Of a stretch of 64,000 bases of DNA, positions 44,201-53,200 are shown in pieces. Positions within the stretch are counted from its first letter, which is position 1. Every line of letters starts with the position of its first letter. Source of the stretch: Haliclystus octoradiatus (Eukaryota; Cnidaria; Staurozoa; Stauromedusae; Haliclystidae); assembly GCA_916610825.1 (NCBI GenBank), contig OU744448.1, positions 10,187,113-10,251,112 of the forward strand. The letters are read 5' to 3'. A program made the position numbers and the translations under genes. The notes under the pieces are model-generated. The model made no database searches, had not been told where the DNA came from, and saw nothing but the letters and a program-made list of their open reading frames with translations.

Positions 44201-47200
44201 AGTTGGTGTGACACAGGTACATTCTACAATATCATCAATTAATGAATAATTGTTTCAGTTAGAAGACATTTGAAGCTCAGATGGCATAGCTACCAGAATT
44301 CAGATTTGATCATATCTGCTGAACTGTCGCTCAAATCCCCAAAAGGTCAACTCAGCCTTGACTTTATTTGGAAAATCAATAATTGTTATCTTCTGATGAC
44401 AGATTATAATGATCCAAAGGAAATTGCATTATGAGTTACTGCGGTGTAATTCGCTGCGCATTGATAATCAAGACCTATCCTTCACGAAAGCTGTATAAAT
44501 TGATCTGCAATGTCGCGGCTGAGGTTAATGAAGAGAATTTATAATCATTGCTCCCTTAGCAAAAAGAGTCACTCCCCTTAATGTAAGAAATTTATCTTCG
44601 GTAGGGCGATGCCATCTCAATTACTATTTTAATTGTTCTCTACTTTGTGGGGGCACTTATCAATATTCTAGAAATTCTTGCATTTGTGTTTACAATGTAA
44701 ACAATCATTAAATTTTCGTGAGCAGTACAGAAACATTTTGTGGAATTGTCAATTAATGTGAATGAAAAGTTCAATATTTATAATTATGAATCATTTATAA
44801 TTTCAGGTTCTTTCTCGCCTTTCATACATCTCTGCACTTGGGATGATGACCCGCATTACAAGTCAGGTAAGTTCCAAAAATAAAACCAACAGTAACTAGG
44901 TGATTTCATACTGTAGTTTTGCTACTCTGCCTTTTCTTTATAGTGTACCTTACTACACTATGAGATATGTAATTACTGATAATGTAATTATTTTGTGCTG
45001 AAAAATTGCTTAAACATCGACCCCTGCTGAAAATGTGATACAATTATGCTGAATAAATTTCAGCAGTTTAAGAAAACTTACTGGAAACCTGCTGAAAAAG
45101 CGCTGAAAGTCCCAAAAAAAATTGTTGCGTACAATTGCACATTTCACATGCTGAAAATCTTCTTAAAACGATTCCAGCACTTTCTCTGGGGTGCTGAAAA
45201 ACTTCTGAAAAAATTGAAAACAACGAAAAAGACGTTTTGCCTCATTTTGATGAAAATTTGGCACGAGAGGCTTTATAGACATGGCGATTTACCCCACGCT
45301 GGCGGTCGTGGCTAGATCAGGGGTAACTCAAGGACATTTTATGATTTTTTATGGATTCTTTTATTTGTATTAAATTTGGTTTTCAACCGATTTTCAAAAT
45401 TCTTTTTGCATTTGGTACCTTTGTATATTTACCAAAATCTACCATGTATAATTGAAAAATAAAAAGTTACTCAACTTTTAAACTAAGCTTCGTGATAAAA
45501 CTTTTTGGCTGACTAACATTTGTTGCAATAATTTTTTCATTTTTTTTTATTTTATACAAGACAAATTTGTAGTAAATATATTAAGGTACCAAATGCAAAA
45601 AGAATTTTGAAAATCGGTTGAAAACCAAATTTAATACAAATAAAAGAATCCATAAAAAATCATAAAATGTCCTCGAGTTACCCCTGATCTAGCCACGACC
45701 CACGCTGGCTGTGAAAACATCAATATAGTTATATATTAAGTTTATATTATGTTATATTATGTTTACGAATTATTACTTTGATCTATCACTTCAATGTCTA
45801 TTACCAGAATGACCGTTAGCGTTATGGGATGAGCATGGAGACTGGAGAGTCTAATAGTAATCTACAACTCAACAGAACAGTGAACTGACTGACCGACTGA
45901 ATTTTGGATATGCTAGAAACTGAAGGGAAGATCTTAAAAACGATAAAAACGATTTGCTATTTTCACCAAGTAAAAAGTAATAATAACCCATGGTTTGATG
46001 TGATGTTGATGTTATGATATTGTCTCGCTTGTCTTGGCATTTAATTTTAATATCGACAATCGGGAAACAGAAAATATACACAACATTATATAAAGTACGA
46101 TATATTAACAATTAACGATTAAACAATGGCATTTATACAAAATTTCAAAATAATAAACAGCTAAAAATAAATACTAACAGTAATCAATAAAATATAAACA
46201 ATCATCCATGGCACCAACAGCAGCAACACAGACAATATTTGATAACTCCACTGTGAGGTTTTTCTTTTCACATATTCTACGAGTGTATTGATGTCTTGTA
46301 TTTTTACATACCGAAGTCTTAGCAAATGCACTAATACTTACGTACACATTTTCAGATGCATTGAAATTGTCGACTGCGATAAAATGATTAATTAAACCGT
46401 ACATCACAGTTTTGTTGAAGAAAAATTTTACACATGATTCTTTGGAACCAAGAGATCTGTTTAATTTTCCTATCATTGTCAACTCCTTGTTGCTATTCTG
46501 GAAGACACGATTGACTTTGCTACTGAATGTTAAGGAATCAAAAGCGTCGCTACGAATTGATGGAATAAATTTTTTTGCGTTTTCTTTCAAAGTTTGAATC
46601 ATTTGGGAACATTTGATTGCCTGTCCAGCCAGTGATACGTCTGGGAAAGGGTTATTTGGATTGCCTGTAACGTAAATAATATTCAAATCTAAGCACTCTG
46701 GCACTCGGACATTCAAAGCAAAGTTGCATCATGCAATTGTTTCCGTTACACTCACTGTAGTTACCGAGATCTTCGTGCTGCAGATCTTCGACCAACTCTT
46801 TTGGAATGTTGCCAGTTAGCAACTGGTAGTTACACCAATCAAATAACTTTCAAGATAAAACAAATAATTTAATCAATTATGATGGGTTGTCTATCATGCA
46901 GCATACTCAAAGTTTGAAAAGTTACCCTGTACGTTTCCATGACAGTACTCTCTGGTGTCTTTCTGTTAGTGACCCGTCTGCATATCCAGGAATTTAAACG
47001 TTTCATTGGGAACATCCAGTTACATTGAACTGGACCGTTTGTAATAATACCATCAACGATGTGATGAACAAGATGAAAAGAAATGTCCTAAGCAAGTAAA
47101 TTTTAGAAATTAAATGACAAACATAATTTAAACAAATACATTTACTCCTAAATTTTACGTCAATACCATATGAATAATGCTGCTAGTCCGTATCAAATCT

Positions 47201-50200: not shown

Positions 50201-53200
50201 GAAAAACAACATTCAGTTTATGCAACGCTTCAACCTCAAATTAATTGATGAGTTAATGTTAACAAACGCTGTTCGTTGTATCAAAGAAGAAGATACTGTG
50301 AGGTTGTCCATTGTGCCATTGTTTTACTTCTTTTGTTATGTAAATAATCACGGCTTCATTGGTTTGCAATAACTGTGTATTGTTTTCATGTGGTACGTCA
50401 TTATTATTTAGCTCACCAGAAGAAAATCAATCGGCAGCAGACGGGTTAAATGTTGATGCCGAACCATTCAGCGAAGATGACTTTGGCTGCATTGAAAGTT
50501 TTGGTACGTCATTTATATTTATTTGCTTGTCACAAAACCATGCCATATTCAACTTTAGGGATTTACTCAACACAATCCATGTTATTATTTTTGATAAACA
50601 GGCTACCCTTCAATGCCATTAACACCACCATCGATGGCTTGCCTCCCACTCCCGCTCCAACCACCACCAAAGGAAAAAGTCGCGGAGTGCAGCTTGAAAG
50701 TAAGTGTTGGATCTATTACCACAGTGATACAACTACATTCGCTTTAGTCGTAACTTTACCAAATCTATTGTGTTACAGTATTCAATCAGGGAAGCTGCAA
50801 AAATGGAAGGGGCGTGGTACTTCCACAGAGATATCCCCCACATGAAAATGTTGGGGGAAAAAGGCACAAAAGCAAAAATAATTAAAACAGTAAAACAGTG
50901 TAGTTTACAATTACTTACTTGCAATTATAATGATTACGATTTTAAATTATTCCAAATATACTATTTACAAATTAAAGGTACTCAAGGGACATCCAAATTC
51001 AACTTTGGAAAACATTAACAAACACCTTATTCGAAGTCTTTCGAACAGAAGGGCTTACCTGAAGAAAAAATCCAAGGCAGCAGTGAGTATTAATTATTCC
51101 TGATATAACTCAATTATATTGATAAAGTAAGTAATGACTTTAATAAAGCAAGTTTACATCTTTTATAGCCAACATCAGCATTATCAGTTAAGTCATTTAA
51201 TAACACAACGTCAACAGCCACTGTATTACAAAATGGGGAAAGGTAATTGATAATTAAAAAGACAAAATCACTTTAAACACATTAAACACTTCCAAGTACG
51301 TATTTTTCTGTATAGATCAAACAACAGTCAGGTCAATGACAAACAGCAGCCATCGGAATGCAGCGCTAAAGAATTTTTCAATGGGTAAGAGAGGCACGAC
51401 TATGCCAAAGTTACAATTATATGTTTTCATTTTATTATTAATTTGTTACGATTTTGTAATCTTTATTATCAGACAAGAATTAATCGTTAGAAGCAATCGC
51501 GGGGTAGAGTTGGGGACAGCCGTGTTCGTGTCAAAAAGTAAAGGGGTGTCGGGAGGTAAGTGATCAGCTTTACATACTTAATTTTCCACATTTATTATAG
51601 CTGCCGAAGTGGTGTAGCGGTTAGGGACTAGGGCTTCAAATTGTGAACTTGCGTCAAATGTTGGTTCAAATCCATCCCGATGCTGAATTTTTTTCTTTTC
51701 TTAGATAAATTCGCTATCTTAATTTTGAAGACGAAGAAGCAAGGAGCAGAGGGATCGCTGCCTGTTGCAACCAAATCTGAAAAATATACTTTTGAGGAAT
51801 TGACGGTAAGTAGAATATTAATCCTCAAGTATACATATCACCGTGATTATTATTTTATTACCAGGTCAGTAAAAGTTTGTTTTGTTTCTTCGACAGGAGA
51901 AAGAAGAATTTCAATGGAGTTTGAAAAATCTGAAAGTTGTAAACAACAAAAGAAAATGGAAGAAAAAAAAACAGCACGATGTTTAATTAAATTAATTTAT
52001 TTTTGTTAATCTGTATTTTAATCTGTATTTGTTTTGTTTATTATTTATGTCTTATATTATATAATTCTGTTTTCTTTCTCGCCGTGTACTCGGAGCTTTG
52101 TTTACGAATTTCGTTTATTTCAAATCATGTTCAATTATTAAGTCTAATTATGACCAAAGGCAAATTTACCGACCGGTGATTATAATTCTGTATGCAATAT
52201 CAATACGAATTGGACTCTGTTTCAGCAGGTTTTCAGTTTTTTACCAGCATTATTTCATTAGATAGTCAGCATGTGTCCCTTATTTCAGCACATTTTCAGC
52301 AGGTTTTAAGTACACATTCAACATAATTCCATTTTAAAATCATGAGATTTCCATCAATTTCAGCCTGCTGAAAAGGTGCTGAAGTATGCTGTTTTCAGCA
52401 TGTTGCATATGCTGAAAAAGTAATGAGATTTCAGCAGATTTTCAGCATGTTTCCAGTAATTTCGACCTCATAGTGCTAGAACTCTAACCTTTACTTCTGC
52501 GTAATACTTTTTGTTGTCTATCCAGGCACTATGGTTATCACCAAGTTGTTGTTTTTATCTCCGACCCATTTGCATTACAGTTATATACAAACTTCATTCT
52601 TATAATATATACATAAATTTAGAATGTTCAAAATAATGCTATTTTTCAAATGTGAATTGCATTTTTGTGTATTTTTCTATTCATCAGTTTGAAAAGACTC
52701 GCAAAGTTAGTGGTCCGCGCTCATTGCAACCATCACAATGGGGATTCTTGTGTCCCTCTGATACTCCAGAAGGGGAAGGCTGTGGGTTGGTAAAGAATCT
52801 TGCTTTGATGACTCATGTAACTACTGATCAAGAAAAAGAACCAGTTATTCGATTTGCATATAATCTGGGTGTAGAGGTATGTCAACAGCCTTCTCAATCA
52901 ATCTGATATTAACATTTTCTGAAGGTCTTTAAGGCCTACCCCTGTGAAAGAAACAATTCAGCAGTTCATGATCATTCACGGACAGTTCATGAACAGTTCA
53001 TGAAATTTGGGGCCATTTAATGTTCATGAAATTTGGGGCAATTTAATGTTCATGAACTGTTCATGAACTCCTGGACTGTCTTTCGCAGGGGTATCTGCCA
53101 TGAAGTTTGTTGGAATTGATCTATTTGATAGAAATGTTGTGCCTTTGTTCGGGAATGGACATTTACAGCAATTTCAGTCAAGTTGCATTTTAAATTAGGA

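Follow-up and report, generated by a model that had tools for sequence, protein, structure and literature searches.

What kind of element fills an intron of POLR3B in the stalked jellyfish Haliclystus octoradiatus, and can it still move? The question is raised by a 64,000-nucleotide stretch of contig OU744448.1 (positions 10,187,113 to 10,251,112, forward strand), called the window throughout and corresponding to C4:10187113-10251112 in the genome searched here (262 Mb, 33 contigs). A sequence-only reading of the window had described a complete, recently inserted CACTA/EnSpm transposon with two divergent genes, of a kind less often described in animals than in plants. Our analysis makes it very probable that the locus holds a CACTA/EnSpm cut-and-paste transposon, which was recently inserted into a POLR3B intron of about 0.3 kb and is now disabled. 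The features on which this assignment rests are collected in Table 1.

A CACTA/EnSpm element in an intron of POLR3B

The host gene was identified from its exons. When joined, the two exons flanking the intron match RPC2, the POLR3B product, with an E-value of 3.6e-43, and RNA polymerase II subunits follow far behind; four exon pieces upstream, with borders placed by eye, also match RPC2 (E = 3.2e-45). The RPC2 exon pieces score 155.6 bits against 7a6h_B and 96.4 bits against 5fj8_B, which we take to be the human and yeast RPC2 structures, respectively; the higher score of the former is consistent with an animal host, though no proof of one. The intron measures 7,821 bp, in agreement with the 7.8 kb first proposed, and is reduced to approximately 298 bp after subtraction of the element and one CTA triplet.

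Measured against the definition of CACTA/EnSpm elements in the available parts of three sources (PMC8978399, PMC4158355, PMC12730594), the element belongs to this superfamily by its ends, its 3-bp target-site duplication, its PF02992 transposase and its subterminal arrays, as the sequence-only reading had held. The CACTA-type termini and the CTA triplets on both sides lie exactly where that reading placed them. Inward of the terminal inverted repeats (TIRs), 5-6 unmatched bases are followed by a second matching block, AATTACTG. The subterminal arrays it had reported were also recovered: of 16 instances of the motif GCTGAAA, 13 point inward and three outward, every instance within approximately 260 bp of an end, and a check of both strands found none elsewhere in the 7,520-bp element. 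The shorter CTGAAA core faces inward 15 times within the terminal 260 bp on one side and 280 bp on the other, compared with 1.5 expected and a maximum of eight in 5,000 Markov sequences; three more cores lie in the element interior.

Table 1. Coordinates of the element, its genes and its insertion site in the window
Feature	Position	Strand	Basis or remark
Host intron, POLR3B (RPC2), holding the CACTA element	44867..52687	+	GT/AG borders read; joined flanking exons match RPC2
Target-site duplication CTA, left copy	44953..44955		sequence read
Target-site duplication CTA, right copy	52476..52478		sequence read
CACTA/EnSpm element, 7,520 bp including nested insert	44956..52475		ends, length, genomic copies
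Left TIR, CACTATGAG	44956..44964	+	sequence read
Right TIR, CTCATAGTG	52467..52475	-	sequence read
Left subterminal array, CTGAAA core 7 times inward (6 within GCTGAAA) and once outward	44997..45210	+	motif count
Right subterminal array, CTGAAA core 8 times inward (7 within GCTGAAA) and twice outward	52220..52446	-	motif count
Nested foldback element, 397 bp, 134-nt arms 96% complementary	45304..45700		without counterpart in 6/6 further copies aligned across this position
9-bp duplication CACGCTGGC, left of nested element	45295..45303		sequence read
9-bp duplication CACGCTGGC, right of nested element	45701..45709		sequence read
Transposase gene, 6 exons, 893 codons and final stop; D279, D371, E431	46174..49585	-	PF02992, GT/AG borders
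Transposase exons	49585-48397, 48311-47761, 47680-47483, 47087-46926, 46846-46756, 46664-46174	-	splice model
In-frame stop, transposase codon 488 of 893	48037..48039	-	private to window copy; 6/6 other covering copies read an amino acid
Region between divergent start codons, 390 bp, presumed shared promoter	49586..49975		promoter role inferred
Second gene, 11 exons, 342 residues	49976..51986	+	splice model; many splice sites common to a diverged relative
Second-gene exons	49976-50050, 50172-50302, 50412-50503, 50602-50699, 50779-50889, 50978-51082, 51169-51242, 51316-51384, 51473-51555, 51705-51805, 51897-51986	+	splice model

Genomic copies, target-site duplications and empty sites

The left 345 bp of the element returned 26 matches in the genome and the right 486 bp returned 22, with some loci holding two. 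Ten copies carry internal sequence, and are denoted here as the window copy, C7:14.7M, C7:12.1M, C2:31.5M, C14, C4:20.25M, C5:18.2M, C8:10.37M, C1:19.88M and C2:20.47M. A search for further copies with the same termini had been suggested as a check on the sequence-only reading, and five further long copies do share the CACTATGAG and CTCATAGTG ends with the window. Both ends are intact in six of the ten long copies, and the triplets beside them are all different (CTA in the window, then AGA, ATA, GTA, TTC and TTA). Of four miniature elements (147, 227, 252 and 283 bp), one is flanked by TCA and three by TAA. The retrieved loci and the window together provide 14 candidate end pairs, a count restricted to loci where both ends could be recognised. 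Ten of these pairs have identical 3-bp flanks, comprising eight different triplets, with TAA present three times.

Sites lacking the element display the duplication directly. Queries were constructed by joining 130 bases from each side of an insertion and keeping one triplet; eight were built and six searched. The C14 site is empty at 10 loci that are contiguous over all 260 bases at 98-100% identity (two extra matches are partial). Empty versions of the C7:14.7M site lie at 35 loci (95-99%) and of the C2:31.5M site at five (98%, over 154 junction-spanning bases). The C7:12.1M site is empty at two loci with 87% identity, both 26 bases shorter than the query, which fits a 26-base duplication beside that insertion; this direct duplication adjoins the element just left of position 701 of the retrieved locus (L010), and is possibly the trace of an earlier event there. 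For the C4:20.25M site, no match was found among the 40 of 296 candidates that were scored. All four insertions with empty sister sites landed in repeated sequences. The sequence-only reading had called for an empty site holding one triplet: this was found exactly for three other copies and more loosely for the fourth, and the joined flanks of the window's own site returned just those two flanks from the genome. Members of this CACTA family insert precisely and duplicate 3 bp of their target.

The transposase gene

The leftward gene encodes a Tnp2-type transposase, as had been proposed. Its first exon matches PF02992 (Transposase_21, tnp2) with an E-value of 2e-21 and 76.6 bits against a cut-off of 28.6, and exon 2 carries the match on (E = 0.0011, 18.6 bits, below the cut-off by itself); DUF1258 and Paf67 were also listed in the Pfam scan, both below their cut-offs. 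The residues D279, D371 and E431 are likely to form the D-D-E triad. The two aspartates are present in all eight copies that cover them and the glutamate in seven of eight. A CCWC sequence at residues 390-393, between D371 and E431, is a candidate for the C(2)C motif. E431 is taken as the probable catalytic glutamate on the basis of plant motifs. An apparent frameshift near 46,700-46,760 was considered and discarded; the other compared copies carry no indel at this place, and splicing from a GTGAGT donor to a CAG acceptor keeps the frame open.

The stop at codon 488, which the sequence-only reading had overlooked, lies downstream of the assigned triad and removes the 405 residues after it. Within the stretches retrieved, no copy among the ten that carry internal sequence preserves the transposase without interruption. 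The gene contains stops in C2:31.5M, has lost its start region in C14 and C4:20.25M, and has suffered larger losses in C5:18.2M, C8, C1 and C2:20.47M. The C7:12.1M copy was examined as a possible intact source and rejected, as 3 bases are missing at two places in exon 1 and the frame is broken. In C7:14.7M, exon 1 is broken by a 1.7-kb insert with hAT-like ends. This insert (approximately 4873-6605 of locus L009) starts with CAGGGGCGGATCC and ends in a near inverse of that sequence, and the matches on its two sides overlap by 8 bp; we presume it to be a hAT element. The ratio of nonsynonymous to synonymous differences per site (pN/pS) for the transposase is 0.47-0.61 when the window copy is compared with C2:31.5M, C4:20.25M, C5:18.2M and C1.

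Across the genome, PF02992 has 36 matches, of which 35 exceed the cut-off. Eight of the 36 belong to the present family and the remaining 28 lie at other loci; the genome therefore contains additional tnp2 families. Seventeen matches span just profile positions 7-64 or thereabouts, 12 of these in open frames of 115 residues, and could possibly belong to a second EnSpm family of higher copy number.

The second gene

The divergent second gene of the sequence-only reading was recovered as an 11-exon model on the strand opposite the transposase. The first border drawn for exon 5 has no GT donor, and a border 9 bases upstream was used instead. Four copies (window, C7:14.7M, C7:12.1M and C14) retain an open frame for this gene, as scored with that earlier border, 9 bases downstream of the final one. 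The pN/pS of the second gene is 0.17-0.33 against C2:31.5M, C14, C4:20.25M, C5:18.2M and C1. A diverged relative at C2:12.593-12.595M differs from it by 9-20% of nucleotides in the exons, with a pN/pS of 0.35 over 243 codons, and has splice sites in common on both sides of exons 4 to 6, 8 and 9. The relative is decayed, featuring three stops, several small indels, altered exon-10 borders and a GC donor after exon 7. Beyond the copies and this relative, six further weak matches lie at five places (E = 3e-6 to 3.3). Taken together, the pN/pS comparisons suggest, with moderate strength, that the second gene has been under purifying selection.

The predicted charge of the second protein is -10 over its first 130 residues and +13 over residues 131-210, a pattern compatible with a helper that binds DNA, though no proof of one. 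By analogy with maize Spm, the protein may be a TnpA-like helper, and its gene offers a concrete candidate for the TnpA counterpart. Positions 51600-51690, in an intron of this gene, resemble tRNA-derived sequence by eye, with motifs similar to A and B boxes; ARAGORN calls no tRNA there.

Nested insertion and age

The left arm of the window copy is interrupted by a foldback element that had likewise been overlooked. The alignment of C5:18.2M stops at its site and picks up further in. The first half of the nested element drew 549 first-look candidates from the genome. Scoring of 40 of these yielded 80 matches, and in many cases two matches are the paired arms of a single copy. Its absence from the six other copies aligned across the site, its flanking 9-bp duplication and its repetition in the genome indicate a later insertion by a member of a repeated foldback family. 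The combination of a long inverted repeat and a 9-bp duplication resembles Mutator-type elements.

The window copy diverges by 0.49% from C7:14.7M and by 0.58% from C7:12.1M, and has 13 private substitutions in approximately 7.1 kb, counted at sites covered by at least two other copies, with C1:19.88M and the first base of the nested insert left out. With its nearest copies 0.5-0.6% apart, the family appears to have been active recently. These data support the recent insertion that the sequence-only reading had suggested; current activity is not supported.

Weighing the explanation

We propose that the transposase of this family would cut at the CACTA ends and join the cut ends to a target staggered by 3 bp, as the superfamily does. 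The second protein, with its acidic N-terminus and strongly basic residues 131-210, would act as a helper, most likely by binding the subterminal GCTGAAA motifs in the manner of TnpA in maize Spm. Given its own nested 397-bp insert and transposase stop, the window copy would be mobile only with transposase from another source.

Several observations weigh against this account. The perfect TIR match is only 9 bp long, and the transposase shows no clear instance of the H(3-4)H motif that characterises the group. Flanking triplets differ in four of the 14 end pairs (C5:18.2M, L019, L022 and a second pair at L024); the ends of the first three are degraded, and the unmatched L024 pair lies on the other strand. 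No empty version of the window's own site is seen in the present assembly. For the transposase, pN/pS is 2.53 and 0.63 in comparisons with the two nearest copies and 2.29 with C14; together with the 0.47-0.61 given above, these values leave selection on it no more than weakly visible. For the second gene, C7:14.7M, C7:12.1M and C8 provide three to four changes each, which are uninformative on selection; moreover, the introns of the C2:12.593-12.595M relative are about as diverged as its exons (0.08-0.16, and 0.32 for intron 9), which is why we rate the evidence for selection as moderate. The second protein has no match in Pfam or among PDB chains up to an E-value of 10, and its binding to GCTGAAA is proposed by analogy. 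The whole account is built on sequence.

How far do other explanations accommodate the same data? That the element was wrongly joined into the intron during assembly has in its favour that the evidence comes from a single assembly. Against it stand the exact duplication of 3 bp, the substitutions and nested insert found in this copy alone, and matching 3-bp flanks at nine other places; we regard this as close to negligible. The word "complete" in the sequence-only reading, taken to mean autonomous and capable of moving itself today, is not supported. Both ends are intact, both genes are full length, the second gene is open and the nearest copies are 0.5-0.6% away, all of which would suit an autonomous element. 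Set against these are the private codon-488 stop with its cost of 405 residues, the 397-bp insert in the left arm, and the lack of an uninterrupted transposase in any of the ten copies within the stretches retrieved, which together make autonomy highly improbable.

The second gene could instead be a captured fragment of a host gene with no role in transposition. Plant CACTA elements are known to capture genes, the second protein carries no known domain, and the six weak matches at five other places could be host genes. The gene nevertheless occupies the same position in the copies that cover the region. Its pN/pS lies at 0.17-0.33 in five comparisons between copies, and at 0.35 in that with the diverged relative with which it has splice sites in common; capture is an unlikely origin. 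The element might also stem from a lineage sister to EnSpm, be it Mirage, Chapaev, Plavaka or a further group of CMC type. Those groups possess C(2)C motifs and mostly CA..TG ends in the available parts of PMC12730594. The same source describes CAC..GTG ends with 3-bp duplications as consistent with EnSpm, and the PF02992 match is far over its cut-off; we give this origin very little credence.

A recently inserted and since disabled CACTA/EnSpm transposon thus remains by far the best account of the locus. A more ambitious extension of it would see an animal lineage of CACTA elements whose ends are of plant type and whose duplications are 3 bp, in which an 11-exon helper of a new class, encoded back to back with the transposase, reads the inward GCTGAAA motifs, as a TnpA counterpart that either arose independently or has diverged beyond recognition. 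We offer this tentatively, and lean somewhat against it.

Place among known CACTA elements

The following comparisons draw on the available parts of the cited papers. Plant CACTA/EnSpm elements of the maize En/Spm type resemble the present element in their CACTA ends, 3-bp duplication, tnp2 gene, subterminal repeats and two coding units (PMC8978399, PMC4158355). Maize Spm differs in that alternative splicing of one unit yields its proteins (PMC1636069), whereas the second protein here has a separate, divergent gene of 11 exons. The animal TRC elements, SmTRC1 and its relatives, also possess a Transposase_21 domain and multi-exon genes, but their ends begin with CCC and they duplicate 2 bp (PMC1636069), in contrast to the CACTATGAG ends and 3-bp duplication described here; the element has neither the CCC core nor the 2-bp duplication of the TRC subgroup. 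Spongebob/EnSpm-4N1_HM, from Hydra and insects, is likewise an animal member of the CACTA superfamily with non-autonomous copies, yet has CCC ends and a 2-bp duplication (PMC4298943). Fungal EnSpm families share the CAC..GTG ends and 3-bp duplications, but carry a TET/JBP dioxygenase gene (PMC12730594), for which the reading frames scanned here gave no Pfam match.

In the literature compared, with Repbase and the ends of the Daphnia CACTA families (PMC2884549) outside the comparison, we found no other animal element combining CACTA ends with a 3-bp duplication. Within that same limit, the published animal TRC elements (CCC ends, 2 bp) agree with the remark in the sequence-only reading that complete animal CACTA elements of this type have been described less often than plant ones. 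The family is an addition to the known CACTA/EnSpm kind and not a new kind of element. It is well supported and includes sister copies as well as miniature elements derived from them, and its empty paralogous sites display the 3-bp duplication directly. As the published animal elements with readable ends have CCC ends and 2-bp duplications, the family is useful for comparing how end sequence and target length have evolved within the superfamily.

Other features of the window

Scans of the window for tRNA genes (ARAGORN) and Rfam families returned nothing. A tandem array of 37-base units occupies positions 58995-59185. Dispersed inverted and direct copies with a motif resembling GTGGCCACCTGTCTATA lie at 15540-15666, 19276-19328, 56597-56723, 12970-13016 and 39212-39258, and probably represent another DNA-transposon family.

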